Below, one piece after another: positions 7,422 to 56,201 of a DNA stretch of 64,000 bases (positions within the stretch are counted from its first letter, which is position 1; each line of letters starts with the position of its first letter). Origin of the DNA: Henricia sp. BOLD:AAB3569 (Eukaryota > Echinodermata > Asteroidea > Spinulosida > Echinasteridae); contig JBBELK010000936.1 in the NCBI GenBank assembly GCA_037783545.1, forward strand, positions 248,001 through 312,000, read 5' to 3'. The translations under genes were made by a program, and so were the position numbers. The notes under the pieces were generated by a model. That model was given only the letters and a program-made list of their open reading frames with translations, was not told the origin of the DNA and did no database searches.

Positions 7422-10400
7422 GTAGGCTAGTTTTTATGGTTAGGGGCCGTCCATAAAGTACGTAGGAGGCACGGAGCCTCGGACATGTCGGAGCAGCATG
7501 AGCAGGGAGAGGGGTCATTACTTTTTTAGAAGGCTAAAAGTGTTTATTTGACGTTTATATTGGGATGTTATCATTTTCTAACACTTTTAGCCCTTTGGAT
7601 ATTTGACCACATTCTCCGTCGTGAACCAAGCTGCACGGGCAAGATGGCGGATCTCGACATGTCAAAATAAACCTATCGACGTCTCAATGCATTATGGATT
7701 GGATGACAAAATTGCCCGGCAAAATGTGCATAAACCTATGAGGCGGACACCAACTCGGCAACTTTTTACCTCATTTTCACGAAAAACCAAAAAGAGTTCA
7801 AGAATCAACCTCCCACCAACTTTATCTTTGACAAATATCAAACATTCTGACCAAACATGTCCGAAACGAAATGTCGCAAATGGCGAGAGGGAGAATCTAA
7901 GGGGATTCCCTTCGTATCGGTAGTCCGAGTCCCACGCTCGCAGCTCGGTTATGCGCTAGCGCTATGCAACACACGGCGCTGGACTGGTTCGATATTTTTA
8001 AAATTTATATTGGGGGGGTGGGGGGAGGGGTGGGCCCGTGTACACGGACTCGCAGTGCAGCACAAATACGGCGTGTGTTGCATGCATAGCGCATACCGAG
8101 CTGCGAGCGTGGTACTCGGACTCTACCGATACGAAGGGAATCCCCGATGATTTCTCGCATTTGCAACATTTCTGTTTCGGGACATGTTTGTCGGAATGTT
8201 TGATATGTGTCAAAGATAAAGTGGTGGGAGGTTGATTCTTGAACTCTTTTTGGTTTTCGTTAAAATGAGTAAAAACGTTGCCGAGTTGGTGTCCGCCTCA
8301 TAGGTTTATGCACATTTGGCCGGGCAATTTTGTCATCCAATCCCATATGTGCATTGAGAACGTCGATAAGGTTTATTAAACATTGAAAAACTTACCATGG
8401 AAGTCCCTAGAATCTCCAGAATTCTGTACCCTGGTCTATTTTCCGCGATGATTCTTCTAAACAGGGAAAAAACTAGTCCAACGTCATTTTCGGTATTTTT
8501 TTCGTATACATTGAACAAAGATTTTAAGGAAATTACCTCCTGGAATCAACACATAATGTAATTTTAAGATATACTTCCCACTGGCACTTTCGTCGCAAAT
8601 GTTGCTTTTCTGTAGAAAAATCACGTTTTCTTCTTCACAAATTGCCTTCAGTTAGTGCACAAGATAACCATTCACGCGCGCGCGCAGCGCCCTCTGTTGT
8701 CGCGCTTACGCACAGACTGCTCGCCGCGTCATTTTGTGCATTACTTTATGCAGTAATTTTATCATTTATTTATCTCAGAAATGCAACATTTGCGACGGTA
8801 GTGTCAGTGGGAAGTATATCTTAGAATTGAATAAGCTATCGATTCCAATATATAAATTTACCCAAATCCGTGTTCAATGTATATGAAAAAAATACCTCAT
8901 TTTCTTCACATTTTCCGAGTTTACTGAGGATAAGACTAAGAGCCGTAAAAGTAGCACAGCAAATAGGGGGTCACCTGGTCACCTCACGTCATACAATGAG
9001 GTGTATCTCGACCCGCATTTGCTGTGGCACCATGTGCTACTTTTACGTCACGTCAAGGGCTCTTAGGCCAATGAAATTAGATTACTAGTTTCTCGTCAAC
9101 CACTTTTCAAATTTTGATGAGGGTTGTTTTTCATTATTCATTATTTCTTATCAATGAAAAATGCAACCCGTTATATATACACTAACTGCTATTTTGAAAC
9201 CGATTTAGGCTCTAAAAGTAAAAGTCGTCCAGAAAGTTAGTGCCTGTATCAGTTCCATGGAGTTATACCTGTAGCTTGTGTTTGAAGGAAGAACTTGAGA
9301 TGGCAAAAATCATGGAAAATGTCAAAGAAGTTTTGTAAGAGCAATACATTTAATTTGGCAGGCCTTTACGGCCCCCATGGCCGGCCCAAAGAGGGTGTGC
9401 ATTCCATAAGATCGGTACAGTTCCTACCCACAAAAACCTTCTCTAGATGCACGTGTTACAAAATCCGTGGACGCTGCTGTCCTAGCTGTTCCTGTATAGT
9501 GTCAACCAATGCACAGTTCCGATTGCGAAACCACTCCATTGCTTCGTCTATGTAGGTATGTGACAAACATTTTCAAAGTTACTTTACTTCAATGAAATCA
9601 ATGTCATTGAACAGAACACGACGTAAATAATCTAACAATACCAAGATGAGCATGTTTCGTCCAGTACGGAAGAAAATATCCGCGAAAGAAAGATGAAAAT
9701 TTGGGCCAAAAACCTCCTGCACAGTTAATGGGTTTTGCAACTTTACTTGTGACCGGGCCGAGCACCGCCGCATTGCAATAAAGTTTTGCAACAGACACCA
9801 CTGGGCCAACAAGCTAGGACTGCCAGAAAACTGGGACTGCTTTTGACTAGACGTCAGCTGAAGCAGTCATTGCGCGGCGTATTTCGCGGCGCTACGGCAC
9901 GAATATCCCGCGCACGCATTGCTGACGAGACTGTGCCTTTAATCAGACTCTGGAGGCAGAACGGAACTTCTGCCGAGCACTGACCTAGTTTGCGTATAGA
10001 GCTAGAGCTATAGCATGCGCCAATCTATTTGGCGCGTGCCAGAAGAGTCTGGCCACGTGCCGCCTGGGGTTAATGTATTACATTGTATAACATTGTACAT
10101 GTATTACTAATTCTTTGTATTAGTCTTGCTTCCTGTGCGGTGTGCTTATGATGCACACGGGACTTCGTTGTTGTGTTGCGGTATGTTAGCTGTGCAGTAG
10201 TAAAAGTTGGAGAGTATATTGAATGATAACTCGGCTTTGTCTTTCTTGTAGAGTCGGAAATCCTGTGACTGTGTCCCCTTTCTGGCGTTCAAGTGCGGGA
10301 ATTGAGGAAAGGACACTTGTTACGCCTACTTACAAACAAACACACACGTCTCGGAAAATAATTCAAAATATCCAAGCAGTGAAATGAAATAATTATGTGT

Positions 10401-13400
10401 TATACGACTACCTATTGTTTAAACACAAGATGGCATTTTTTTCTTCAGCAAATTCATCTGGTCAAATCAGCAGCATGCAAAATGATTTTTTTTATTTTAT
10501 TAAAAACCACCATTCCACAATGTTCCATCCAAAAGACATCAAAACGGACGCCACAAAGTAGCATACTGGATCCCATAGGGTGATCTCGTTAAATCACGAC
10601 TATTTTTTATTTCATGTTTCAAACTCGTTTGGTATTATTGTGTGAGCTATTGGGTCAGTACTCCGTACACAAATCGCCTTTGAGGGTATGACTAAAACAA
10701 TACATTTTTGTAGGCTAAAGGCAGAGGCTCGTCAGCAATGCCGCACGCCAAAAAGGTGACACGAAATACGCAGCCCCTATGCTATGGAGCTGCGTATTTC
10801 GTGGCACAAATTTGGCGGGCGCGCATTGCTGACGAGCCTCTGCCTTTAAATAAATATGCCACAAGTTTAGATAGAGCGCAGACTTAGCGCGCTGATCTTT
10901 TATATCGGTTGCTATGCACGCAATTCGCATGCCTGGTGAAAAACAATGGACCTTATTGTCACAGTGTGACGTCACTTCGCCCTCGCCCATATAAGGTAGG
11001 CCCCTACACATGTATTTAATTCTGATTAAAAGTTAACAACAACCTTTTAGCCCAATAACATTTTTGCCACATGGAGAGGTAACGTGTTTAATGCTGACTA
11101 GAGATCATCCGTTTCCCCTGGACTCATCCGTACACTTGTGGCTCTCCGGTACCGTAGTACCAGTGAAACCACGCAGCGGATTCCAAAGCCACCCGGTCCC
11201 CTGAAATTTATCTAAGCTGCGGTGTATAAGAACGCCTGGAGAATAAACTACTCTGTGTCAAACAGCAAGTACAGCCAGCTACCCGGGATGCCTTTTGTGA
11301 GCGTTTGACCAATGAGAAACTGTCATATGTGCAGGTGGCCTGCAAAGTGGCGGATGAATACCTCCCGAGACTTGAAAATTCAGTCATTTATTCCTTAACT
11401 TCTAAATGTTTTTAAATCTTTGCAAACGCCCGGAGGTTAGGGTAAGGACGATGTTTAACATTCAATTTAGATGAAACTCGGCAGGATGATAGACAAATAA
11501 GTAAAGAAAAATACTCGCATAGTCTGAAAAAATACTGCACTGATCTTATGCAAAAATATCAACGATTTGTATGAGAGAAAAAAAGACAGACATGTAGGAA
11601 GAAAATGTGCAGCTGAAGAAGATAACTTTCGAGAAATTCAGTCAAAAATCTAATAATAGGTATGTGTTCTATGTCACCAAAGTAAAAAAACCCGGTGACA
11701 AACAGTGTAAGTACTAAAAAAACGTGATTCCAATATATAAATTTACCCAAATCCGTGTTCAATGTATATGAAAAAAGCCAATAGGTGTCCATGTTACATA
11801 TCCTAACCCTGTGAATTGTGCCTTGGATTAATAGAGAGCGCTGATTGAATCCAGTGATCACCGCGCCGATGTGTTGTGCTAAATTAGTGGCAGATAATCG
11901 GACTTGCGATGAATATAAAGGACGTGCTAAAGTAGGGGACTGTGAAAATATATTCTTTGGAATATTATTCATTAATCTACCGTAGCATTTTACATTCTAT
12001 CTTCTGCCTAGAAGTTGGAAGTTACGGGTTTGGAAGCCTCGCTGGATTGAGCGATGTCGTTAGCGCTCATCAGGTAGTAGACTGGACTTCGCTTGATTGA
12101 GGGTTGCTCCCCTACTAAATAGAGCCATGCCCCTTTCTGTAAAGGCCATTTTTGGGGGCCTTTGCTATTTTTGCTTGCATTTTTTGGTACTAATGTTCTC
12201 TTTCTTCAATTACTTTACTTTATTGTTTCAGTTTTTGAAGTTTTAGAATAACAATAATGTATGTTGGTACATTGACATTTCATTGTTCTAAGTTAGGTTA
12301 ATACTAATAGTAAAAGGCTAAATATTGTTTTGGGATAATTCCAATCTCTTCAGGCCAAGTTTTTTAGTCATTAATCTGTCACTAAAATTACTTATTAAAA
12401 ATCAGAAAGTGCATACATGTACTTGATCTTAATATTTGATTACACGAATAAAGACCTTCAGATAGTTGTTTTGGTATTTTTTTCGTATACATTGAACAAA
12501 GATTTTAAGGAAATTACCTCCTGGAATCAACAGATAATGTAATTTTAAGATATACTTCCCACTTGCACTTTTGTCGCAAATGTTGTTTTTCTGTAGAAAA
12601 GTCACATTTTCTCCTTCAAAAATTGCCTTCGGTTAGCATGGTTAGTGCACAAGATAACCATTCACGCGTGCGCGCAGCGCCCTCTGTTGTCGCACTTACG
12701 CACTCTGTTGTCGCACTTACGCACAGACCGCTCGCTGCGTCATTTTGTGCATTACTTTACGCAGTAATTTATTATTTATTTATCTCCGAAATGCAATATT
12801 TGCGACAGAAGTGCAAGTGGGAAGTATATCTTAGAATTTGATGATCTGTTGATTCCAGGAGGTAATTTCATTCAAATCTTTATTCAATGCATACAAAAAA
12901 AATACCATTGTTTTTAAAAGGTAATTCCAGTTACATTTAGTGTGACAAGATGCTTTATTTGCAGTGACGTTAAGCTATGCACTCGACAACGCTCACAAAG
13001 AGGAACTGATAATCAGTTGTGTGCTAAAACAAACAAACAAACAAAGTGCATGTTTTTTACACTGAAATTTTGCACAAACACAGACAACAATCTCCCCAAA
13101 CTGTCATGTCGCTGGTTTCACAAGTCTGTTTCGCAACACAAACTACCCTTTTTGGACCAGAAATCTCACCGTCAAACAAACATCTTGCTGTGTTCCAATT
13201 TAAATATTTAAAAACAAAAATGTAAAAATAAATATCGTCAGAAAGTATTCTTTATTAAAAAACTTTGAATTGAACAATGCTGTGATGTTTTACAGCGCAT
13301 TTCTCGCGATGCGCCACTTCGCATACGGCAGAAATCCACTGTGAAACTGACCAGTATTAGTGTACCGGTACCTAGTGCAAGCGCGATGACGTCACATATT

Positions 13401-19400: not shown

Positions 19401-22400
19401 AACTGCTGTTGCTTGTAACTGAACTTGTAACAGACTCGACTACATTCCTTTACTTCATTTTGTTTGCCGATTAATGCAGTGAGGTCGACCCCTTTGGACT
19501 CTTCACCAAAGGTCGCAGTTTACTGACCAAACGAGAAGTTAGCGAGGACCTGGAAAACAGGCTTCACTTTTTTATTGAAGAATGCGACCATCTCCAGGTA
19601 AGGCTAAGAGAATGTAAATACTAATAACTGTTCATGATGAGGGTAGTGGTGCAAACTACTGTCCCGAGGTGATCTTGAGATGGTAGGGCTGCTATTTCTT
19701 CACAGCCATAGGGAATGGTCCATATGTTAGGATAACGTTTTTGTTATTTCTATCTTTTGATTTGGCTAACCTAGGGGTTCCAAGTTCTCGTTGACTTCTA
19801 TGATGGCTTTGGTGGTCTGGGATCCAGCCTCGTTGAGAATCTAGCTGATGAATACCGAGGCAAGGGCATCATGGCTATGGCTGTGGCACCAGCTGCATTT
19901 CCAAACTCTGTAAGTACATGAATATTGAAAGACGGTAGATTTTATGCTGAGGTATTTGAAGCTAAACTAAACTCCTTAAAAATTATATCATTGGAAAGCC
20001 CTGTTATTCCTCTTTACGGTGATGTGTCATTTGTTATGATTAAGCAATTGGGGGATGTGCAGCACAGCTGAATACGGGGGCGGGTGTAAAGTGAAATGTC
20101 ACAAAATGCATTGCTATTGTCAAAAAGTGCATTGACACATTCCCATCCTCCAAGCAAAAGGTGAATGCACTGCATGACAATAGCAGTGAATAACGGGGCT
20201 TTCCAATGATACCAAATTCAAGGGAAATGATTTAGTAACAAGAGAGAAATCGTCAGTCAAACTTGACTTTCCGAACTTTTTTTTAGGAGTTTAGTTCCTG
20301 TTAACCATTTGTTTCAACATACCTCATACATATTCTCCTGTTCCGAATCATACATTGGGGCAATTCTAGTTAGTAAGCTTACATAATACATGTTAAAAGT
20401 ACCGGCCCGTCAGCAATGCGCACCAAAATACCAAATTCTTGCCACGAAATACGCAGCTCCATGCCTCTGCTATGGAGCTGCGTATTTCGTGACACAAATT
20501 TTGGCACGCGCGCTTTGCTGACGAGCCTGTGCCTTTAAGCAAATTACTACAGTTCCATGGGCTGTTATGTCAACACGCATGCCTGTCTTGTTCTTGATTG
20601 TGGTATCATCAATGCATCTTACCAACGCTCACTAGGCAGTGATAACTAAAATCATTTAGTCCCATTTTGTGGGTTGTAATGAAAATTTCAACCTTAGGAC
20701 ATGGTAACAAAAGCCAGAGGTGAGATTTTTCCGGATTTCCGGAATTTTACCAGTCGCTCTTCGTTAAGTGATGTGAAACCGTGCTTCAATAACTAACGAT
20801 GATTAAGTGCCAATATAGTATGAGCCTCATTTGTTGCCCATTGTTGCAGGGTCACAGTGCCGACAACCACCGATTGATCAACTCCGTCCTGACCTTCCAT
20901 AAACTGAGCGAGCAGAGCTCTCTCCTGGTGCCTCTCTCACTGGCTACATCCCTCTGGAGGAAAGCGGGAGCCCCAACCAAACTCCAAAATGTTCAATACA
21001 AGGTTGGACCTGCATCTTGCCTTTTATGATTATATTTCAAGTAAAGGCTAGGTAAAAGATAATATACATGATTGGTAAACTGTTGCAAATAGTTTTATCC
21101 CCCTGTGTGATTGACGATATGCATGATTAAAACCAACCTGAGCAAAAATCAGCTCCGTACTTCGTCTAACTTTTGAGAAAAGTCAAAAAAGGATTTGCAG
21201 TAATTTCGCCCCAAAACCATTTGGCCCTAAACCACAGCCTGTGCACGAAGTGGTTTTGGGGCGAAGTGGTGTTTGGACGATGTAGTGTTTGGACTAAGTA
21301 ATTTGGGGCGAAATGGCACTCGGGCGAAGTGGTTTGGGGCGAAATGGTTTTGGGGCGAATTTAATTTTCGTTTCATGAGACGAAAACTAATTGTTTTACT
21401 CATTTCTCAAAGACTATAGCACTTCAGACAAAACCATTTCAGGTGAAGTTTCCTACGGTCATCATGTTTATATTGTGTAAGTTAAGCGTAAATCTGTGAA
21501 CATTTCTGATTTTCGAGATTTCCAATGATGTATACTGCCTTTAATTCACACTGCACTTACATGTACATGTATTTCTTTTGTCAAACGTACGTAAAATTTA
21601 CGTACGTCATCCCTGGTCCGTCAGTTCTTGATTCGTTGATGCATTTTTAATGTGAACCGTCTCAAAAATCAGCCTAATTTACATACGTCGTGTAGAAAAT
21701 CAACGTATGATTTTCCAAAATGGTTTGTTGGAGAAAATCCTGTGGTGGATGTATTTTTTGTTTTCGAATGTGTGGCTGAATGGGCGTCTGAATCACAGAG
21801 CTAGCTTTGCTCAGGTGGCTAAATGCACGGATGAAACTACACGGTGCGTAAATTTCCTGCGCATTTTGTTGAGTTCCCTATGCAGTTGGATGCGTCGATA
21901 GTGTGAACCACTGGTGAAAACGTACGCAACGCTGCGGAACGGACAGTATCTGGAACAAATTGAGCTCCTACTTTTTGACGTGTTTTAACATAAGAAAAAA
22001 TTCAGTGTGCATCAACCACAGATTTTCATTAACAGCTAGAAAAGAAATGACTGTGTTATTGAATGGCACATCACCGTAACCGGTTTCGGGCGGTTTGGAA
22101 CGCGTGCGTATGTAGCGCGTTTTGTGTTTGAATACATGGGGTGTTATGGCCGAGCGGTCTAGTGCGTCGAACTCAAGTTCCTGCCAGTACTAGAATGTGG
22201 GTTCGATTCCGGGCCGCGACAGGTTGTGGCACTTGTGCTCTTGAGAAAGGCACTTAATCACACTTTCTCCATCCTTCGGAAGGGATGTAAAGCCGTTGGT
22301 CCGGTGTGTTAGGTAAGGTAACGCACTTTAAAGATCCCAGAGCATTTCCTCGTGAAGAGAAGGGGAGGGATTCCCCGGTGTCTCTGGCCATATCTAATTC

Positions 22401-34125: not shown

Positions 34126-35920
34126 GGGCCTATTGACCAAATAGCTGCCATCTTTGGGGGAAACTAATTGTTTGGTCAAACTGGTCAAATTGCCCCACAC
34201 GATAATGGTTATTTGATAAGGTCCATTGTCACACTTACTCCAACCTCCCCACCCACCCACGCCCTCCCCCAATCCATGCAATTCGAGTATGCACATTTTT
34301 TTCAACTAATTTCATGATTTCAAAATTGATACCAAAATATTGCATTTGTTACTTGGCAATGCAACACCAAGAGAAATGTTTGGTTCTCGAGGGAAACCCG
34401 AGGGAGTTTGTTTACTACAATGCCTTAAACCAGCGCTTATCACTATTCATGTACCTCAGTAAATATTCATCAGGTAGCTGCAGTATTTCATTGGTGTATT
34501 CAGCAACTCAACCATGGATTATTTTTACTACGTATTTCCTTGCATCTTCCACAGATGTATGTGACATGGACAAACCAGGAAAGTAGGCCTAGAATTACAT
34601 GTACACACTTTGGTCATGGACTTAGACTTGTCCCAGAGTGGCGTGAGTGTGATCTTTTATCTGTCTATTGTAACATTTGTAAATGACATCAGAAGGGCTT
34701 GCTTTGCGTAACTGAGGAAGAAATGCTGTAACTTCCTGATAGAATTTTCACGAGGTAAAGTAAAAACACATGGTTTAAAGATGCATGGTCGGGTCACACA
34801 TTATGCAGGTCTTCAGAATTGAAATCGCCACCTGGGGTAGACTTGGGCAAAGGCTATTAGGCAGAAGAACTCCCATTTCAAATGACTCAAGCATGCATGA
34901 TTTCGCCCAAGACTGCTTCGCTAACAGTAAAGCCCTGTCAGCATTGGACTTTTTTGGGGAACACTTACCGAGACGATGGGTACCTTTCCCATTTTAAGTC
35001 CAATGCGGACAGCCTGGGACATTTTCCAGCGGTTACTTTTCCTGGCCAACTGCTGCCCAGGAAAATTGACCAGGGAACCTTTCCCGAGACGATAAGTCCA
35101 ATGCGGACACATCGAGTCAGTAAAATCGCTCTGGAAGCGTACATTACATCCAGGCCGTGAAGGTCATACTGCGAAGGGACACTGTGCATGCTCTCCTACG
35201 GTCTCGGTAAATTTTCCCGTGTCGAAAAAGTCCAAATACGGACAGAAGTCAAATTTAGCAATTTTTTTTTTTTCAATCGTTTCGGTAAACCTCCCAAAAA
35301 ACAATGCGGAATCCAAATCTGCCATTATTTTCATGCATTAACATGGTATGTTTTCATGACCTTTGACCCTCACTTTGACCTTGAATTTGACATCGTGGAT
35401 CACGTGATCCGGAGGTGAACTTCGGTGAAAATTTTCCCCCATATGTTTTCTTCATAATATTACAAAATTAGAGATATAATATTTTTTGTTTGCTTTCCAG
35501 CTCTTCTCAAAGTTGCCATGTTTAGTAAAAATGTAATATTCCTATGCAAAGTACATTACATGTGTACTCGTATATCTGCAAGGCATGCAATACATACATA
35601 CATGTGTACAATCTATACAGGCAGTGGGCAAATTTTGTAAATCTTATGGAATATACATACAACATTTTAAGAAGCAATAAATTACATATTCCAATAGGCA
35701 ATCACTGTGACTATTAGATCATTATCATAAATTATGTCTTTGATCACTCAGCTAAAGTTATTGATCAATTACGATCCAGTCTGGGTACACTCTTGAAATT
35801 TGTGCGCTGTCATTTGCTGAGATGTAGTACTTTCTGGAAGACGAGGATGTCAGTGATGGGGTGTTGACTTTGCATAAAACATTGGCTTCAGTAACCCAGC
35901 ATTTATCAGGTTTCAATTGC

Positions 35921-36236
35921 CACTATAATAATAACAATAATAGCAATCTTATATAGCGCCAAATGCCAGGGCCTCTAGGCGCTTTACAGTATAAAAACAA
36001 AAACCAAAGCGATAACATACATATACATGTACATAGATAAAAAAGATTAAACGTTAAAACCAAAAAGCATCATCAAGAGCATCAAGTCTGGTAATACTGA
36101 ACAAAAAGATGTGTCTTAAGCTGGGACCTGAAATTACTGATGGAATGAATTTGACGCATGCTGTTAGGAAGACCATTCCAGAGGTGTGCCGCTGAAAAAA
36201 CAAATGATCTATCACCATAGAATTTTGTTGATGAGC
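35921..36236 (-). mobile_element. LINE 3' end inserted in the left arm of the inverted-repeat element
   Basis: Reading on the minus strand, HLWNGLPNSMRQIHSISNFR followed by SQLKTHLF is the C-terminal tail typical of CR1/L2-like reverse-transcriptase ORFs. Downstream comes GGCGCTATATAAGATTGC and an ATT-rich tail at 35921-35945. The right arm of the host element lacks this segment. Confidence 0.75.
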
Positions 36237-36393
36237 GAACTGTTTGGATGGTCCATGAGGGTGCCTAAAATTAATATAAAAGTCACCAAACTCCTCAGAA
36301 ATGTTCTGATCCATGGGAAGCCATCATAAATGCAGCAGACAAAGTTTTGTTGTATTATACATCCAAATCCTGTGCTGCCCTCTGGTGCTGGTT

Positions 36394-36804
36394 CTACAAA
36401 TGTACATCATTGCTGTGCGAAACTGGTACTACATCTGGCGGGCTCACTTGACCACTTAATTTGTACACTTGTAACATTGATTTGGAGACTGGGACAAACC
36501 TGTGGAATTGCAGAGTTCCTTTGACAGTTATTGCTGTGTCAAATCTGCCTTGAAGCTCTGATGCCGTTTTGGTAACATCCTCTGGTGACACAATAAAAAA
36601 CTTAATACCAGGGATCTTCTCTGTGCAGAAATCCATTATTGCCTCAGATGTAAGAATTTGGTCATTGTATGGGCGCTGTAGGCTAGCCTTAGTTACAAGT
36701 CGTTTAACAGTCCCTCCAATACCATCGCAGGCACTCTTTCCGTGGGATGTGGCAAACAAAAATTCCATTCGGCAGCTAGCCCGAAATCTTCCTGATGGTG
36801 ACAT
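36394..36804 (-). CDS. Uncharacterised 137-codon frame inside the inverted-repeat element
   Basis: Contains MEFLFATSHGKSACDGIGG, TVKRLVTKASLQRPYND and GIKFFIVSPEDV. I recall GHGKG/SHGKS-DG-GG-VKR motifs in repeated proteins of unknown role in invertebrate genomes, but I cannot name the family. It has a start and stop but is flanked by transposon arms, so it is probably an exon-like remnant carried by the element. A function cannot be given. Confidence 0.5.
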   Translation of the reverse strand: MSPSGRFRASCRMEFLFATSHGKSACDGIGGTVKRLVTKASLQRPYNDQILTSEAIMDFCTEKIPGIKFFIVSPEDVTKTASELQGRFDTAITVKGTLQFHRFVPVSKSMLQVYKLSGQVSPPDVVPVSHSNDVHL

Positions 36805-38202
36805 AGGTTTATGAAGTTATATTTGTTTTTGTATTGTCCTGCGCAGCCATCAGTGAGGTAATGGATTTTTTAAAATTAATTTTATGCACCCTCATGGACC
36901 ATCCAAACAGTTCAAGTGCCCATTGGAACCTGATAAATGCTGGGTTACTGAAGCCAATGTTTTATGCAAAGTCAACACCCCATCACTGACATCCTCGTCT
37001 ACCAGAAAGTACTACATCTCACCCAATGACAGCGCACAAATTTCAAGAGTGTACCCAGACTGAATCGTAATTGATCAATAACTTTAGCTGAGTGATCACT
37101 TAAAGACATAATCTATGGTAATGATGTATTATGGTCACAGTAAATGCCATTTGGAATATTGGAATATGTAATTAATTTATTGCTTCTTAAAATGTATGTA
37201 TATCCCATAAGATCTACAAAATTTTCCTACTGCCTGTATAGATTGTACATGTATATGTATGTATTGCATGCCTTGCATATACACGAGTACACATGTACAT
37301 GTAATGTACTTTGCATAGGAATATTACATTTTTACTAAACATGGCAACTTTGAGAAGAGCTGGAAAGCAAACAAAAAATATTATATCTCTAATTTTTTGA
37401 TACTATGAAGAAAACATATGGGGGAAAATTTTCACCGAAGTTCACCTCCGGATCACGTGATCCACGAGGTCAAATTCAAGGTCAAAAGGTCATGAAAACA
37501 TAACATGTTAATGCATGAAAATAATGGCAGATTTGGATTCCTTATGCAATTCCCTTTCCAAACACCAATTAACCCCTGGGGGGTTACTGATTTATGGTCG
37601 TTTGAAAGTTGACAGTCGCGCTCATTTTGACCAAAATCGTCGAAAAAGCGCGCGCCGTATCGCGAAAACCGTAAGTCGGATGAATTTTTTATTTTGAAAT
37701 TTGAGCTTGTTGAGTCAAAGTTACCCTATAAACCAAATTTGAGCAAATTTGAAGAGGGTAGGGTTAAAAATTTCAGGTGAAATTTACATTGAATGACCCC
37801 TATGAACTGACATTAGCAAATTATAGCATTTTATTCAGTTCAGCAAGTAATTAATTGGATTTCTGGTAACGGAATTACGTTTTATGTGTACATGTATGTG
37901 GAATTACCCCAAGATGCAAGTCAAACAATCCCAGCCCTGTACTCCTTGGATAAGTCAGATCCATGAAAACTTTCCAATTTTGTCAGACTTGAGCAAAATA
38001 AATTAATATTAATTGAGGCAATCCTTATTCTGTTCATATTGCGCCAGGATACTACTCTCAAGTCGGGATACTTTCAAAAATAAAAAAACAAATGCCATCG
38101 TGACAAACATAAGCGGAACTGTACTGATGTAACTGACTATTGAATCTGACTTATCCCAGGTTCCCTTTAATATGGCATTTTAAAACTTTTTTTCTTTCTT
38201 TT

Positions 38203-43757: not shown

Positions 43758-43983
43758 GTACTGGGAGGCCCAAGGAGAACGTCAAGAAGAGTACGGAAGG
43801 CCCATGGTGGCTGCGCTCTCATGTCACGCGCATTTACATGATGTATATGGCGCCGCACATAACCGTTTAGTTTCGTTTGACGATGCACAACTACGTACAT
43901 GTTTGCGGAAAAAAAAGACTGTTATCGCGATAAGGAGTCGAAGACGGTTCTCTTCGGCAACAACTGTCGGAAATAGAAATTTG

Positions 43984-44384
43984 GGTATTTTTTTCGTATA
44001 CATTGAACAAAGATTTTAAGGAAATTACCTCCTGGAATCAACACAATGTAATTTTAAGATATACTTCCCACTTGCACTTTTGTCGCAAATGTTGCTTTTG
44101 TGTAGAAAAATCACGTTTTCTTCTTCAAAAATTGCCTTCAGTTAGTGCACAAAATAACCATTCACGCGCGCGCAGCGCCCTCTGTTGTCGCGCTTATGCA
44201 CAGACCGCTCACCGCGTCATTTTGTGCATTACTTTATGCAGTAATTTTATCATTTATTTATCTCAGAAATGCAACATTTGCGACGGAAGTGTCAGTGGGA
44301 AGTATATCTTAGAATTGAATAAGCTATCGATTCCAATATATAAATTTACCCAAATCCGTGTTCAATATATATGAAAAAAATACC
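43984..44384. mobile_element. hAT-type MITE copy 3, 7-of-8 duplication
   Basis: Same termini as 8492-8896. GAAATTTG at 43976-43983 corresponds to TAAATTTG at 44385-44392. Confidence 0.88.
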
Positions 44385-45135
44385 TAAATTTGATTAAAAA
44401 ACGGCAATGTAAGTACATTGTAGTTCTTTTTACTTGTTTTCCAATCAAGTATCTAAAACCACACAACCAGCTGGAAATTGTGTGTGTGATTCCAATTTCG
44501 AGACAAAATGACAACCAGCCACTACATGTACATGAAAAAGGGGAAATTTATAAAACCCGGAGGTCGAAGGTACACGGAGGTCGATCTAAAATTTATGTTA
44601 GAGCTAGAAGAGATCTGCAAACAAGGGAAACGATACTCTGTGAATACAATGTATAGCAACAATATATGTTTGTCTGCCGGTTGATCACATTTCACCAAAC
44701 GGTTATAACAAGTCGAACTTTTTTTGCTTGCCCAGTCCCCACCCAGAGCTCCATTGCGCTTATACATGTATCTAGCGACCCGGGCCAAAGGTTGATGTAA
44801 AATTCGCGATACAGCTGGAATACTTACATGTACATGTACATATGTAGGCAAATTTGCCCAAAGTGTGAAACTGTCCCTGTTTTGTCAAACGGCCATTCCA
44901 ATTTCGCTAAAGTTTTTAAAATTAATGTCTAACTTTAAAAAACAATTTCTACCTCCGGGTTACCTCCGACCTCCGGGTTTGAAAAGGGTGTGCACAGGCT
45001 AACTTCTGTCTTGAAGTTGAAAGGTACAATTTCAGCCGAGTTTTGAGGTTGAAAGTGTCGCTGTATTGAGCGACGTCGCTCATTAAAGTGACGCAAAGCG
45101 TCGCTGGATCAAGCGACGTCACGTTGCTCAGTTAA

Positions 45136-45562
45136 AGGCAGTATACATGATTCTTATCTCGAAAATCGGAAATGTTCACAGATTTACGCCTAACTTACAC
45201 AATATAAGCATGATGATCGTAGAAAACTTCCTCTGAAATGGTTTTGTCTAAAGTGCTAGTCTTTGAGAAATGAGCAAAAGAAAGTTTTCGTCTCACGAGA
45301 CGAAAATTCAATTCGCCCCGAAACCATTTTGCCCAAGTGCCATTTCGCCCCCAAACCACTTTGCCCGAGTGCCATTTTGCCCCAAATCACTTTGTCCAAA
45401 CACAATTGCCAAAATGCTACTTCGCCCCAAAACCACTTCGTGCACAGGCCGTGGTTCAGGGCGAAATGGTTTTGGGGCGAAATGACTGCAAACTCTTTTT
45501 GTTTTACTGTACGTAGCTGGTTTTTGCTCGGGTTGGTTTTAATCATGCATATCTTCAATGCA
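45136..45562 (+). mobile_element. Family C element, copy 2 (truncated right end)
   Basis: TTAA at 45132-45135, then AGGCAGTATACATGATTC. The GAAATGGTTTTG and TCTCACGAGACGAAAATTCA blocks are followed by TTCGCCCC-AAACCA variants. It is lost after AATCATGCATATCTTC. Confidence 0.75.
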
Positions 45563-47433: not shown

Positions 47434-48125
47434 AGGCAGTGTACATCGACCATAGACAGCCGAAGTGTGACGTGCGTTGCCATGGCAATTGGATCTAAAC
47501 TATCATGTCCGTCGGGAAAAGTACCATTGGAAAAGCACTGAGACACGGTTGAGTGATTTTTAATTTAGATCCAATTGCCTAGGCAACCAACAAAAGGTGA
47601 CGTATTCACTTCGGCAGTCTATTGGTAATCTCGAACATCAGAAATGTTCACAGCGGATTTACGCCTTATTAACTTACACAATATAAACATGATGACCGTA
47701 GAAAACTTCCCCTGAAATGGTTTTGCCTAAATTGCTATAGTCTTTGAGAAACGAGTAAAACAATTAGATTTCGTCTCATAAGACGAAAATTCAATTAGCC
47801 CCAAAACCATTTTGCCCAAGTGCCATTTCGCCCAAAACCACTTCGCCCGAGTGCCATTTCGCCCCAAATTACTTCGTCCAAACACTACATCGCCCAAATG
47901 CCACTTCGCCCCAAAACCACTTCGTGCACAGGCTGTGGTTCTGGGCGAAATGATTCAGGGCGAAGTGGTTTTGGGGCGAAATGACTGCAAACCCTTTTTT
48001 GACTTTTCTCAAAAGTTACACGAAGTGCGGAGCTGGTTTTTGCTCAGGTTGGTTTTAATCATGCATATCTTCCACCACACAGGGGATACAACTATTTATA
48101 ACAGTTTACCAATCATGTAGGCCTA
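47434..48125 (+). mobile_element. Family C element, copy 3, with internal extra palindrome
   Basis: TTAA at 47430-47433, AGGCAGTGTACAT, then an extra foldback at 47448-47625 (GACAGCCGAAGTG and CACTTCGGCAGTC ends) before the family resumes with CAGAAATGTTCACAG. It ends near CCAATCATGTAGGCCTAG, matching the far end of copy 1. Confidence 0.75.
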
Positions 48126-49349: not shown

Positions 49350-49400
49350 GTAATTTATGGAATTCCATATGTGCCAATCAATCCGCGTCTCCTTTTTATC

Positions 49401-49651
49401 CCGTCGCGTTTTTTTCCCGTCGCATTTTTTCTTTTCGTCGCATTTTTTCTCTTTTCGTCGAATTTTTTTCCTTTTCGTCGCATTTTTTTCCTTTTCGTCG
49501 CATTTTTTTCCTTTTCGTCGCATTTTTTTTTCGTCGCATTTTTTTTTTTCGTCGCATTTTTTTTTTCGTCGCATTTTTTTTTCCGTCGCATTTTTTTTTT
49601 CGTCGCATGTTTTTTTTTTCGTCGCATTTTTTTTCCCGTCGCATTTTTTTT
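49401..49651. repeat. TCGTCGCATTTTTT minisatellite, left tip
   Basis: About 15 units of 14-19 bp, each TTTTT(T/C)-CGTCGCA. All six frames stay open and give Lys/Arg-rich or Phe/Ser-rich runs that are not proteins. Confidence 0.9.
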
Positions 49652-49895
49652 CGACTACTGCTACTCACGTCTGTTCAAGGCCCATAGAGATAACGGGCAC
49701 AGACTATTTTTCTGGGCTTGGGCGCGTGATTCCACGCCGCCGGAGTCGAGTAGAATCGATTTCACTTCGAATCGCGTTTCGATATTTTTTGAGGAATCGA
49801 TTACCTGTAGAAATCGATTCCCTGTCGAAATCGATTACCTTTCATCTAGATTCTAGAACCAATAAATGAAATACAATTAGCCGAAGGCATTTTTG

Positions 49896-50360
49896 TTATG
49901 GATCTGACCCCTGAACCACCCTGATGACTAGCTGAACCTGGTGCATCGTTTGTACTGGTGACGCGCCGTAGATCAACCAGTCGTCCAGGTACATGCAAAG
50001 GTTGACACCCTGCAGCCTGAGGTACGCTCCCACCGCCCTGGTAACCATCGTGAACGCCCTGGTAACCATCGTGAACACCCTGGGCGAAGTGGAAATCCCG
50101 AAGGGAAGGCACGTCCATTCGTACGTCTGGCCCAGGATTTTGAATCTGAGCCAGCGCTGGTCTAGGGACGAGACCGGGACGTGCAGGTAGGCATACTTCA
50201 AATCGATAGAGGATGCCCACCTTCCCGTAAGCGGGCAGCGTAGGATGGACGCAAAAGTCTCCATCCTGAACTTGCGGGGCCGTATGAAACGGTTTAAGGG
50301 CTTGGGGTTCAGGATGGGGCGCCAGTCCCAGGTCTGCTTGGGAGCCAAGAAGAACGTCAA
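49896..50360 (-). pseudogene. DIRS-like reverse transcriptase fragment, left arm
   Basis: Reading on the minus strand: APKQTWDWRPILNPKPLNRF, SSIDLKYAYLHVPVSSLD, CLPFGISTSPRVFT and CMYLDDWLIYG. IDLK-AYLHVPV, LPFG--SPRVFT and YLDD are motifs of tyrosine-recombinase (DIRS-like) retrotransposon reverse transcriptases. FTMVTRA is duplicated in tandem (21 bp). The frame stops after VVQGSDP, with RNase H, recombinase and methyltransferase absent. It is a non-functional remnant. Confidence 0.85.
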
Positions 50361-50599
50361 CCAAAACCCCTCGCGATAGAGGGGAGGGGGTCGACCGGAG
50401 AGATGGCGCCCTTGGCAAGCAGGGCAGAGACCTCTGTCATAAGGATGACATCCTTCTGACCCCCATCCTGTGGATAAGGGGGTAGGTTTCGGTTAAGAAG
50501 TCGCTGGGGGTACCGCCGTGAATTCCAGGCGATAACCCCGAGACACAATCTCCAGAACCCAAGCGCCCGGGAGCTGAGATGGCTGGCCACTCTGGACGA

Positions 50600-51486
50600 A
50601 CGTCTGTGGGCAAGGAGCATGCCTGGACCCGTGGAGGCGGGAGAAGAGGAAAGCCAAGATCGAGTTGGCCCTTCTCCGCCTACTGCTCGGGCGCACTGGA
50701 CAAGCCGAGCTTATCGGCCGCCCTACGCACCACATCAAAGGGTACACGCTTGAAGAGTGTCCACCTCCTCTGGGTCCATAGTGGCCGCCGGCGGGGCCAG
50801 GACGAATGTGGCCTCGTCAGGAGGATCGTCCGAACCCGAGTCATCCTCACCGCTGCTAGCCTCCGAGACATCGAAGGTTAGTGGGCGGTAGGAACCCGCG
50901 GAAGACGGGGCAGCCGATGGAACCAAAGGAGAAGGAGCAGGCGCGCATCCACATCTGGTTAGAGGGCGCCGTTCCCGATGGACCTGCGGGCTCGTGAGCC
51001 GGCACTGACTGGTCAGCCCCAGTACAACGGTTGGGCTGGACCCGACCGAGCCCCAACGATGGCCCAAACCGGTTCTCCGTAGGCTCGACGCCTCCTGTCC
51101 CTGAAGGTACGCTATCCGAGGGACGGGGGTCACTTGCGTAACCGCCGTGCTCAGCTCTCATACCTGGGCCTACCGAATCGGCAGTACCCCTTCCTTTGAA
51201 GAGAGAGATGAGTTCCCGTAACAACGGTGCTACCTCGCTACCCAGAGGTTGTTCGGTAGCGGCCCCAACTGACCCAAGACCAGGGGGCCGAGCAGCCGGT
51301 GGTCGGGTCACAGCGTAGCCAACCAGGCTGGGGTGTATTGGTTACGTACTGCTGGGCAGCTAACTCTGAAGGGACTAGCTGTGGCAGGTACTCAGCACCA
51401 GCGGGACCCAGCCAAACTGGCTGACCCGCCTGTGCCCCGGTAGCATAAGCACCAACGTCATGTCCAGCTACCGGGTCCCCCGGCAT
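50600..51486 (-). pseudogene. DIRS-like gag-region remnant, left arm
   Basis: Starts MPGDPVAGHDVGAYATGAQA and continues with QPVWLGPAGAEYLPQLVPSE, then, after frame changes, ATEQPLGSEVAPLLRELISL and SEASSGEDDSGSDDPPDEAT. It has an acidic, Pro/Gly-rich composition. Interrupted by frameshifts and lacking the 866-bp segment retained in the right arm. Gag assignment rests on position upstream of the reverse transcriptase. Confidence 0.6.
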
Positions 51487-53285
51487 GATGTGGTTTCAAC
51501 GTTGTGACGATCTCCTTTGATTTTTCACCTCCTTTGATTTTTCACCGGAAATCGCAAAGACTGTATGAATCCGAATCGAGTACTTTTGAAAACGGCCATA
51601 ATGCACAGAATTCGCGGCAACTACACTGCGGCAACATTTTTGCACCAGTTGCAGACTACCAGCGACGCGGTGTCATGGCGATATGGTTTTTCTATTACGT
51701 GTAGGGTTACCAGTTTATGTCAGACACAGAAATATTAAACATTTTATTAACTTTTTGCTCAATCAACATTTCGCACACTCGGTGATAAATGAGATTTTAA
51801 GGATTTTTATAGTGGACCCCGAATCGGTAATTTTGAGGTGGTGTCAAAATGGTAACGAAACTGTCCCCACGCATGATATAATTCCTATCTAAGGTCTCCG
51901 GAAGTCAACGAGTCTCGCAGAGTCCCGCTCGTTCTCGAGGTCAACTTACACGGTCTATTGTGGGTGCACGTGCCCACTTTTGAAGGCATACAGAGTTCAT
52001 TCCGCATACAGAGTGCACCCCACCACTCAGTTGTCGTGTCCCAATAACATATTATAGTATGCACACAAATCTACTATAAGCAAGGTGCCCACATTATTAC
52101 CCCTGGTCACTAGGCTCACTGGAGAGCATACAGCCCTGTTGGACTCTCATGATGAGAGCGCCCAATCAAACACAGAACACTTTCACTCTTATACATGTAC
52201 ATGTAGTATCCATTTGCTCCCGGTGAAACCAGATAGTCCATAACAAAGTGTCTTGCCCAAGGGCACACTCACATTGCCATCACCTGCATTCGAACTGACA
52301 ACCTGTAGAATTGACCAGGTATTAAATATGACATATTAGACTGCTCTCCTTTAGTAACATACTAATGTTGTATACTATGTATAATGCAATTAAAACTAGC
52401 GTTATTGAGCAAAATATTGACCTTTTTAAAAAAATTCAAAAAACCATGAAGGAAAAAAGATACCAAACCAAATTGTATACTAAAGATAGATTGGATACAG
52501 TATTTTAAGATATGTAAGTTTCAATTGCTTGGGTAGTGACATATCGGGGAACCACCCCTCAGAAGAGGAGGCTCATTTTGCCATTTTTCTTTGCGGACAT
52601 ACTTTTAAACCTAGACCACGCCCCCAAAAAGGGTGGAATTACTTTGTCCTTGATATGAAGCAAACCCATGTGCCTAGTGTGTGTGCATATAAAATATGAA
52701 GTCAATTCAACCATCCATGTGGGCACCATGGGGAGCCAAAAATGAAAACAAGTTACCACGATAATCAAAAATGAGAGTTTTCGGGGAGCGACATCTCGAA
52801 AAGGAAACGTGGTAGCGTACTTTTGATAACAGAATCATGCAGATTAGATGCCAATCTATGTGTATATCAATTTTCAGGTAAAAATTCCCAAGCATTTTTG
52901 AGCTACAGGCCTCCAATGGCACGGCTACGATTGGGAAAATGTGGGTAGGGTAGGCATTTTTGTGGAGGTCATATCCCAGCAACTAGCAATTTTGTAAATG
53001 TTCATGACATAGGTTGAAGTATTTTTATAAAATGTTTTGACCAAATCCGAGTCGGACCCCTGACAACCTCTAGGTGATTTCACACGGAATGACCCAGCTA
53101 TGCGGGGTTTCCTCAGCCGGCCGCCGGCTCACCCAACACCTACCCAGTTTGGGCCGGGAAGCGGTGTGCCGCGGCAGGGGTCTTTCCCGTTCATGGCCCA
53201 ACTGGCCCGGCCAGTTTAGAACTTCTACACGGGTACACCCGCGACCGCGTTCAGCGCAGGGTATCCTGCACCGTCCCCGACCGCG
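51483..53285. other. Centre of the giant palindrome
   Basis: Not shared between arms. 51634-51965 is a minus-strand copy of the repeat found at 5230-6175. About 52240-52310 is a SINE fragment (AGTGTCTTGCCCAAGGGCAC, GCATTCGAACTGACAACC). 53060-53285 is GC-rich and could be the leader of the right-arm element. 52330-53050 shows nothing that I can name. Confidence 0.6.
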
Positions 53286-53304
53286 GGAGACCCGGTAGCT
53301 GGAC

Positions 53305-54990
53305 ATGACGTTGGTGCTTATGCAGGCGGGTCAGCCAGTTTGGCTGGGTCCCGCTGGTGCTGAGTACCTGCCACAGCTAGTCCCTTCGGAGTTAGCTGCC
53401 CAGCAGTACGTAACTAATACACCCCAGCCTGGTTGGCACGTCGGGGTGGACCAGTCCGGCACGGGTTTTCTACCATGGCTCCACCGGACTATGGCTACGC
53501 CGTGACCCGGCCCCCTGGTCTTGGGTCAGTTGGGGCCGCTACCGAACAACCTCTGGGTAGCGAGGTAGCACCGTTGTTACGGGAACTCATCTCTCTCTTC
53601 AAAGGAAGGGGTACTACCGATTCGGTAGGCCCAGGTATGAGAGCTGAGCACGGCGGTTACGCAAGTGACCCCCGTCCCTCGGATAGCGTACCTTCAGGGA
53701 CAGGCGTCGAGCCTACGGAGAACCGGCTTGGGCCATCGTTGGGGCTAGGTCGGGTACAGCCCAACCGTTGTACTGGGGCTGACCAGGTCCATCGGGAACG
53801 GCGCCCTCTACCCAGATTGATGCGCGCCTGCTCCTTCTCCTTTGGTTCCATCGGCTGCCCCGTCTTCCGCGGGTTCCTACCGCCCACTAACCTTCGATGT
53901 CTCGGAGGCTAGCAGCGGTGAGGATGACTCGGGTTCGGACGATCCTCCTGACGAGGCTACATCCGTCCTGGCCCCGCCGGCGGCCACTATGGACCCAGAG
54001 GAGGTGGACACTCTTCAAGCGTGTACCCTTTGCTGTGGTGCGTAGGGCGGCCGAGAAGCTCGGCTTGTCCAGTGCGCCCGAGCAGTAGGCGGAGAAGGGC
54101 CAACTCGATCTTGGCTTTCCTCTTCTCCCGCCTCCACGGGTCCAGGCATGCTCCTTGCCCACAGACGTTCGTCTACTGTGGGACAGGTCGGGGGCTGTTC
54201 CCCAGAAGACTGGAATTTTCTCGGTGAAGGGTTTCACCAGATCATTCCGGACTACGGAGAAGGCTTATGACTCCTTCCTGAGGACACCCTCCATGGACCA
54301 TAACGTCGCCGCTAGGCTACCGTCGACCAAGGGACCTCCAGCGGTCTTCTCTCCCTTCTGGGAGGAACAGCTGCGCCTTCTTGACTTGGCGGTGTCCTCC
54401 AGCCTTCGGCTAGGTGCCTTCTCCATGATCGTCGCCCACGACATGCGTCGGTTGTTATGGGCGACAGAGCAGATGCCGCCACGGAGGTCTCCGATGCTGC
54501 CATGGTAATGGCCGCGCTTGTAACCCGGAAGACGGAGACCTCGATGGCGCTGACCCTCCGGCGTAAAAATGTATGTTTTTCCCTCTGGTCGCTAAGCTCA
54601 GACCTGGCTTCTCAGGTCTCGAAGACCAAGCCTGAGAAACAGGACGTCCTCTTCGGAGGCGCGTTCTGTTCTTCCCTGCTCGCTTTGGCCGAGCGGGTTG
54701 AGAGTGAGCAAGCGCTAAAGCAAGCACAGGCAAAGGTTTCTGGTTCCCAAAAAACCTTCGAGCAAGAAGAGCAAGGGCAAGCGCCCTTCCTGTTCGAGCT
54801 CTGGCAGGCCCGCCAAGCAGGAGAAGTCAGGCACTTCCTAGGACACCAAGCAGTCCGGTGCCCCGGGTTCTTCTCAGAAGAATTTCAGGGCCAGGTCTGG
54901 CCAGCCTCCCAATTCGAAGGGCAAGGGCCCAAAGAAGGAGAAGCAACGTCGGTCCTGAGGGCTTGGCGGCCGCGGAATCCCCTCATGTAA
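53305..54990 (+). pseudogene. DIRS-like gag-region remnant, right arm (longer copy)
   Basis: Encodes QPVWLGPAGAEYLPQLVPSE, ATEQPLGSEVAPLLRELISL, SEASSGEDDSGSDDPPDEAT, then the part absent on the left: FSPFWEEQLRLLDLAVSSSL, RLGAFSMIVAHDMRRLLWAT and KPEKQDVLFGGAFCSSLLAL with a Gln/Lys-rich tail. Broken into several frames. The last block resembles Gag-like regions of DIRS elements that end in a basic or glutamine-rich stretch; this is inference from position and composition. Confidence 0.6.
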
Positions 54991-55192
54991 CGGGATCCGT
55001 ACCACCTCCGGTGGGCGGCCGCCTTCGGTTGTATGCTCCGGAGTGGCCAGCCATCTCAGCTCCCCGGGCGCTTGGGTTCTGGAGATTGTGTCTCGGGGTT
55101 ATCGCCTGGAATTCACGGCGGTACCCCCAGCGACTTCTTAACCGAAACCTACCCCTTATCCACAGGACGGGGGTCAGAAGGATGTCATCCTT

Positions 55193-55716
55193 ATGACAGA
55201 GGTCTCTGCCCTGCTTGCCAAGGGCGCCATCTCTCCGGTCGACCCCCCTCCCCCCTATCGCGAGGGGTTTTGGTTGACGTTCTTCTTGGCTCCCAAGCAG
55301 ACCGGGGACTGGCGCCCCATCCTGAACCCCAAGCCCTTAAACCGTTTCATACGGCCCCGCAAGTTCAGGATGGAGACTTTTGCGTCCATCCTACGCTGCC
55401 CGCTTAAGGGAAGGTGGGCATCCTCTATCGATTTGAAGGATGCCTACCTGCACGTCCCGGTCTCGTCCCTAGACCAGCGCTGGCTCAGAAATCCTGGGCC
55501 AGACGTACGAATGGACGTGCCTTCCCTTCGGGATTTCCGCTTCGCCCAGGGTGTTCACGATGGTTACCAGGGCGGTGGGAGCGTACCTCAGGCTGCAGGC
55601 CAGGTGTCAACCTTTGCATGTACCTGGACGACTGGTTGATCTACGGCGCGTCACCAGTACAAACGATGCACCAGGTTCAGCTAGTCATCAGGGTGGTTCA
55701 GGGGTCAGATCCATAA
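55193..55716 (+). pseudogene. DIRS-like reverse transcriptase fragment, right arm
   Basis: Same protein as 49896-50360 on the opposite strand: WRPILNPKPLNRFIRP, SSIDLKDAYLHVPVSSLD, then a frameshift where TTCAA-type bases are missing near 55490, and a second frameshift near 55600 before CMYLDDWLIYG. It ends at the same VVQGSDP junction as the left copy, so the truncation predates the inverted duplication. Confidence 0.85.
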
Positions 55717-55970
55717 CAAAAATGCCTTCGGCTTAATTTTATTTCATTCATTTCATTTATTGGTTCTAGAATCTAGATGAAAGGGAATCGATTTCGACAG
55801 GGAATCGATTTCTACAGGTAATCGATTCCTCAAAAAATATCGAAACGCGATTCGAGGTGGAATCGATTCTACTCGACTCCGGCGGCGTGGAATCACGCGC
55901 CCAAGCCCAGAAAAATAGTCTGTGCCCGTTATCTCTATGGGCCTTGAACAGACGTGAGTAGCAGTAGTCG

Positions 55971-56160
55971 AAAAAAAAATGCGACGGGAAAAAAATGCGA
56001 CGAAAAAAAAAATGCGACGAAAAAAAAAATGCGACGAAAAAAAAAAATGCGACGAAAAGGAAAAAAATGCGACGAAAAGGAACAAAATTCGACGAAAAGA
56101 GAAAAAATGCGACGAAAAGAAAAAATGCGACGGGAAAAAAACCGCGACGGGATAAAAAGG
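55971..56160. repeat. AAAAAATGCGACGA minisatellite, right tip
   Basis: About 11 units, inverse of the left-tip array but shorter. The difference in unit number shows the arrays have changed independently. Confidence 0.88.
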
Positions 56161-56201
56161 AGACGCGGATTGATTGGCACATATGGAATTCCATAGTAAT
56201 T

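Follow-up and report, generated by a model that had tools for sequence, protein, structure and literature searches.

The 64-kb window, that is, the whole stretch of DNA analysed here, contains at positions 49356-56195 a 6.8-kb palindrome with retrotransposon-like arms inside inverted ends, and the question raised by this locus is whether such a structure has moved as one unit and by which kind of enzyme. The terminal sequence TATGGAATTCCATATGTGCC is found at a single position of the window, 49356, and its reverse complement likewise at one, ending at 56195. The hexamer GTAATT is located directly outside, as a left (49350-49355) and a right (56196-56201) target-site duplication, so that the perfect inverted ends and the GTAATT on both sides reported in the initial annotation were borne out at exact positions. 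The outer inverted repeat extends over 53 bp without mismatch, from TATGG in the left copy (49356-49408, + strand) to the final CCATA in the right copy (56143-56195, - strand). On the left, the terminal module (49356-49908, + strand) consists of this repeat, a minisatellite and a AATCGATT-rich part, and ends at GGATCTGAC; the right module covers 55704-56195 (- strand), and both are common to a second foldback described below. The minisatellite, with a unit of about 17-20 bp, is present in both outer arms, at 49402-49652 (unit CGTCGCATTTTTT) and 55971-56170.

Inside the modules, two outward-facing gag/reverse transcriptase (RT) arms surround a single-copy centre (about 51483-53283, no open frame >96 codons), in agreement with the arms and 1.8-kb centre described previously. 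The left-arm RT fragment (49909-50595, - strand) breaks off within the RT domain, where it joins the module (VIRVVQ-GSDP-stop); it matches PF00078 at 5.4e-15 (49899-50492) and is preceded by a gag-like fragment (50596-51482, - strand). The right arm, on the + strand, is composed of a gag-like first part (53284-54173), a gag-like middle part of 864 bp (54174-55037) and an RT fragment with broken frames and a weak PF00078 match of 4.4e-4 (55038-55703). The palindrome is imperfect, the 864-bp middle part being missing from the left arm. The long arm pieces exhibited a BLAST identity of 91-96% with gaps counted, and the two RT parts differ by 1.2% when substitutions alone are considered. The gag-like parts of both arms, which gave no Pfam match among the scanned ORFs of the element, are taken to be gag from their position. 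Other repeats were also observed in the window: an inverted-repeat unit at 35308-37541 that has arms of about 0.6 kb with 90% likeness, terminates in GGAATCC..GGATTCC and shows no clear duplication; three copies of an element of about 410-440 bp (8488-8897, 12469-12906 and 43980-44385), with inverted ends around GGTATTTTTTTCGTATACATTG and 83-96% alike; and a group of related repeats that surround a GCGAAGTGGTTTTGGG minisatellite and occur in either orientation, at 21065-21544, 45132-45559 and 47621-48119.

The genome (740.7 Mb, 2104 contigs) was searched for further copies. With 132 exact occurrences of the 20-bp end, chance is excluded, and the 24-bp end with at most 2 mismatches was found 165 times (82 + 83); the end pattern read backwards, used as a control, gave 0 matches in the genome. 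Many of the listed end pairs are spaced by about 5.5-7 kb, and the centre sequence was found at at least 38 other places (46 matches, 95-100% identity, from the best 40 of 1564 candidates scored). A set of 32 loci, comprising L009-L039 and the window element and including five same-flank copies on contig C47, was searched for the RT and its junction. RT matches were present on both strands in 29 of the 32, the remaining three being a locus that is cut off (L029), a 0.9-kb derivative (L037) and a rearranged copy (L039). This result argues against a foldback formed on insertion, which the initial annotation had offered as one of two origins. In L020 the centre is flipped with respect to the arms, and both arms of L034 are of the short type, as arm-to-arm exchange would give. 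Another copy (L024:3382-6414) contains in one arm an insertion of about 2.85 kb, probably a LINE since it has a frame of 1011 aa with matches to RVT_1 (1.1e-26) and Exo_endo_phos_2 (1.3e-8).

Both flanks were read for 49 elements, a non-random set made of the best hits, the end pairs listed first and five elements of outlying size; L029 and L033, in which one end is missing or altered, were excluded. Among the 49, 29 showed an exact duplication, always of 6 bp and never reaching 7, while 9 matched at five of six positions and 11 at fewer; GTAATT flanked none of the other copies read. Some copies share their flanks (five on C47, two on C121, and the group C43/C849/C777), and each group was counted once by removing seven rows (C121b, C849, C777 and L010-L013). 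The 42 insertions left showed 22 exact 6-bp duplications, all 22 different, 9 five-of-six matches and 11 with fewer. Four of these 11 belong to the five size outliers (L035, L037, L038 and L039). Others are C697, whose left flank is that of a member of the C43 group, and two adjacent elements, L014 and L015, with right flanks that are reverse-complementary, as those of one inversion junction would be. As a separate observation, the five C47 copies (L009-L013) have identical GTTTAT flanks, lie about 100-240 kb apart on one contig, and probably represent a duplicated region carrying the insertion.

A natural empty site was also found. L019 sits inside another copy of the family. When its two flanks are joined, AATAAA remains once, and the resulting sequence matches that of the window copy, which is unoccupied there and likewise has one AATAAA. 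The different 6-bp duplications together with this empty site show that the family is mobile as a unit and is not an assembly artefact; the mobility suggested in the initial annotation was thereby confirmed. Shared flanks at C47, C121 and C43/C849/C777 are what segmental duplication or an artefact of assembly in place of transposition would produce, and as an account of the family this is extremely improbable against 22 different exact duplications in 22 insertions and one empty site. The duplications and the empty site also support the other origin proposed earlier, a DNA transposon carrying DIRS-type sequence in its arms, of which the DIRS part is likely.

The arms and the ends of this DNA transposon can be told apart by comparison with a foldback on C495 (L085, L087), which combines the same terminal module with different inner arms (inverted, 93-94% alike) and a different centre. 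As the right end of this foldback is missing, no duplication could be read; a shortened end with an identical left flank was seen at C495:78513 (L084). Since the same module is combined here with unrelated arms, the retroelement is cargo. In the window family, the gag/RT part starts where the shared module stops, at GGATCTGAC, and the RT frame breaks off at VIRVVQ and runs into the module, where it reads GSDP and a stop. This junction was found in 32 of 32 loci, 58 times with up to 3 errors allowed. The arm RT reaches position 173 of the 205 of PF00078, and a relative on C40 covers positions 152-204 with a frame that stays open throughout the 501 bp read. Judged from these sequences, the arm retroelement is a captured fragment, because its RT is cut at one fixed junction beyond which the C40 relative continues.

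We also considered that the unit could be a retroelement itself, namely a DIRS derivative using its own RT and acquiring the 6-bp duplication through some integrase. The copies examined do carry gag/RT, 9 of the 39 RT fragments spanning the region are open (5 of 46 by a stricter whole-reference count), and DIRS-1 has inverted termini. This reading is nevertheless very unlikely, given an RT cut at the same point in all 32 loci searched, 30 of 39 spanning fragments that are not open, a C495 foldback that has the module without the retroelement, and ORFs in which no integrase or tyrosine recombinase was recognised.

The captured retroelement itself is likely of DIRS type. This label is based on the RT motifs, including YLDDWLIY, and the gene order, which we read as DIRS, together with the continuation of the C40 relative. 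The RT was identified by RVT_1 matches of 5.4e-15 for the window fragment and 3.1e-18 for L014, for an RT that is incomplete in both; solved retroviral and Ty3 RTs gave matches of 3.5e-9 and weaker. No tyrosine recombinase was recognised in the foldback ORFs, and no PF00589 match was located near the RT relatives C40, C636, C79, C622 and C611 among the matches listed (at least 141 in the genome for PF00589, with 141 of 474 candidates scored, and 149 of 2308 scored for the RT relatives). The arm RT had no relative in the viral_contigs set, and of 18 pattern-matching stretches in genome_contigs 0 were confirmed. Compared with DIRS elements, the family shares the RT with YLDDWLIY and the gag-like part upstream, and its C40 relative extends past the cut; it differs in having the front half only, inverted, with a cut RT, a target duplication and no recognised recombinase. 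DIRS elements are not known to make a target-site duplication, so that a unit with 6-bp duplications is not itself one of them.

The evolution of the arms was examined on 46 RT fragments from 28 loci, with L010-L013 left out. The mean divergence by substitution was 1.3%, with 1.27% within elements and, between elements, 1.24% among short-type arms, 1.37% among arms with the 864 bp and 1.43% for mixed pairs. Variable columns were distributed over codon positions 1/2/3 as 36/30/47 for singletons (p 0.14) and 15/7/13 for shared columns (p 0.23), or 51/37/60 combined (p 0.066), and the pairwise differences (3169/2012/4220) are most numerous at position 3. These data gave no sign of strong purifying selection on the RT cargo and may be compatible with a weak constraint, either now or before capture. 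The tree of the 46 fragments is nearly star-like and of low resolution, with 33 of 42 inner branches open, and the arm types require 7 changes on it compared to 14.9 in shuffles, so that they are partly clustered but also intermingled. The palindrome is most likely older than a recent burst.

As regards the enzyme, the ends of the family read TATGG..CCATA. IS3EU elements have TA..TA termini and usually 6-bp duplications (PMC10045372), and rust-fungus IS3EU families have terminal inverted repeats (TIRs) >30 bp, ends TAYGG..CCRTA and 6-bp duplications (PMC12730594). The family presents the same features, with TATGG..CCATA termini, a perfect 53-bp TIR and, in the 42 insertions, 22 exact and 9 five-of-six duplications of 6 bp next to 11 with fewer matches. 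It is likely a non-autonomous IS3EU member, because ends, TIR and duplication length fit the published signature exactly. It resembles IS3EU/GingerRoot elements in the TA..TA termini, the TAYGG..CCRTA ends, the TIR >30 bp and the 6-bp duplication, and is unlike them in its long foldback arms, its retroelement cargo and the lack of a recognised transposase. A Pfam scan of all 18 ORFs of at least 100 aa in the window element, outside the minisatellites, recognised no transposase and gave nothing else than RVT_1 and one weak match under its cut-off. In the same way, no transposase was seen by eye in frames of at least 180 aa at 21 other loci, or in frames of at least 120 aa at L035-L039, which had been picked for their odd sizes. 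The element looks non-autonomous, none of the ORFs inspected having shown a recognisable transposase.

Candidate DDE enzymes exist in the genome, as the integrase-core profile PF24764 (rva_4), which we take to be an IS3EU marker, gave 53 matches. No exact end has one of these 53 within 10 kb, and the closest match on a shared contig is 19 kb from an end-like site at C423. NF033516 was tried as a bait for IS3EU transposases and rejected: 72 matches were listed, and the top one (L080) is a Gypsy-like pol by eye. The same foldback could also be moved by another enzyme with a 6-bp stagger, a Polinton/Maverick integrase or a hAT6-type transposase, which we hold to be unlikely. The ends of Polintons (AG..CT) and of hAT elements differ in look from TATGG..CCATA. 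The latter match the IS3EU pattern TAYGG..CCRTA of PMC12730594; on the other side, Polintons make 6-bp duplications (PMC10045372), some hAT families have duplications of that length too (PMC12730594), and none of the 53 PF24764 matches was identified as a helper.

An A at position -2 outside the ends was found at 52 of 83 deduplicated ends and at 88 of the 132 exact ends genome-wide (44 without). In 8 of the 9 five-of-six duplications the mismatch falls on position 2 or 5, with A at -2 in the element-adjacent copy. The pattern was noted with L021, L026, L027 and L031 and with elements on C2, C95, C525 and C701. Exact sites are more palindromic than random window 30-mers (4.95 vs 3.86 of 15 pairs, p 0.0026, 22 sites), and therefore a target preference explains these patterns at least in part; in some cases the integration complex would seem to supply this A itself. 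A highly doubtful extension would make the captured arms more than cargo: read-through transcripts of the palindrome would form a hairpin of gag/RT sequence, each arm measuring about 2 kb, and feed small-RNA silencing of related retrotransposons. In it, the integration complex would also write A at the second outside base, as the unequal duplications hint. If it were true, one transposon would be spreading a natural silencing construct against another.

Taken together, we consider with good confidence that the palindrome is a non-autonomous foldback DNA transposon served in trans by an IS3EU-type enzyme, with arms made of a captured, probably DIRS, gag/RT fragment. In the proposed mechanism, a fragment of a retrotransposon would have been captured between two terminal modules of about 0.5 kb before amplification of the family, and the arms would correspond to an inverted duplication of its front half (the gag-like part and part of the RT). 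A trans-acting DDE transposase, for which the IS3EU/GingerRoot type is the most likely, would recognise the TATGG..CCATA ends and insert the complete 6.8-kb unit at cuts staggered by 6 bp, the cargo presumably evolving without strong constraint. In this manner, half a retrotransposon would have been spread as a mirror image by a DNA transposon family. The fixed junction, the different duplications, the empty site and a cargo-free sibling are all present in one genome, and the order of capture, inversion and amplification becomes testable.

The family displays the characters of foldback elements, with long inverted arms, tandem repeats, a variable middle and mobility as a unit. Tetris has 8-10-bp duplications, and most foldbacks are placed in Mutator, with Galileo in P (PMC4079207). 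Foldback, DIRS and terminal inverted repeats are named together in existing papers, e.g. in PMC8268682. The combination of IS3EU with a foldback was not found beyond a cited title in the literature searched, subscription journals and Repbase entries lying outside this search. The joining of IS3EU-type ends and retroelement arms in one foldback thus appears to be a new combination of known kinds of parts. Like FB, TU of sea urchin, Galileo and Tetris, the window family has long inverted arms, an outer end and tandem repeats and, as in Tetris (PMC4079207), an inner domain, a variable middle, a missing transposase and rearranged forms; unlike them, it has a 6-bp duplication, IS3EU-type ends and gag/RT arms. 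The foldback structure would be extended by these IS3EU-type ends, which bears on the origin of foldbacks from different transposase lineages.
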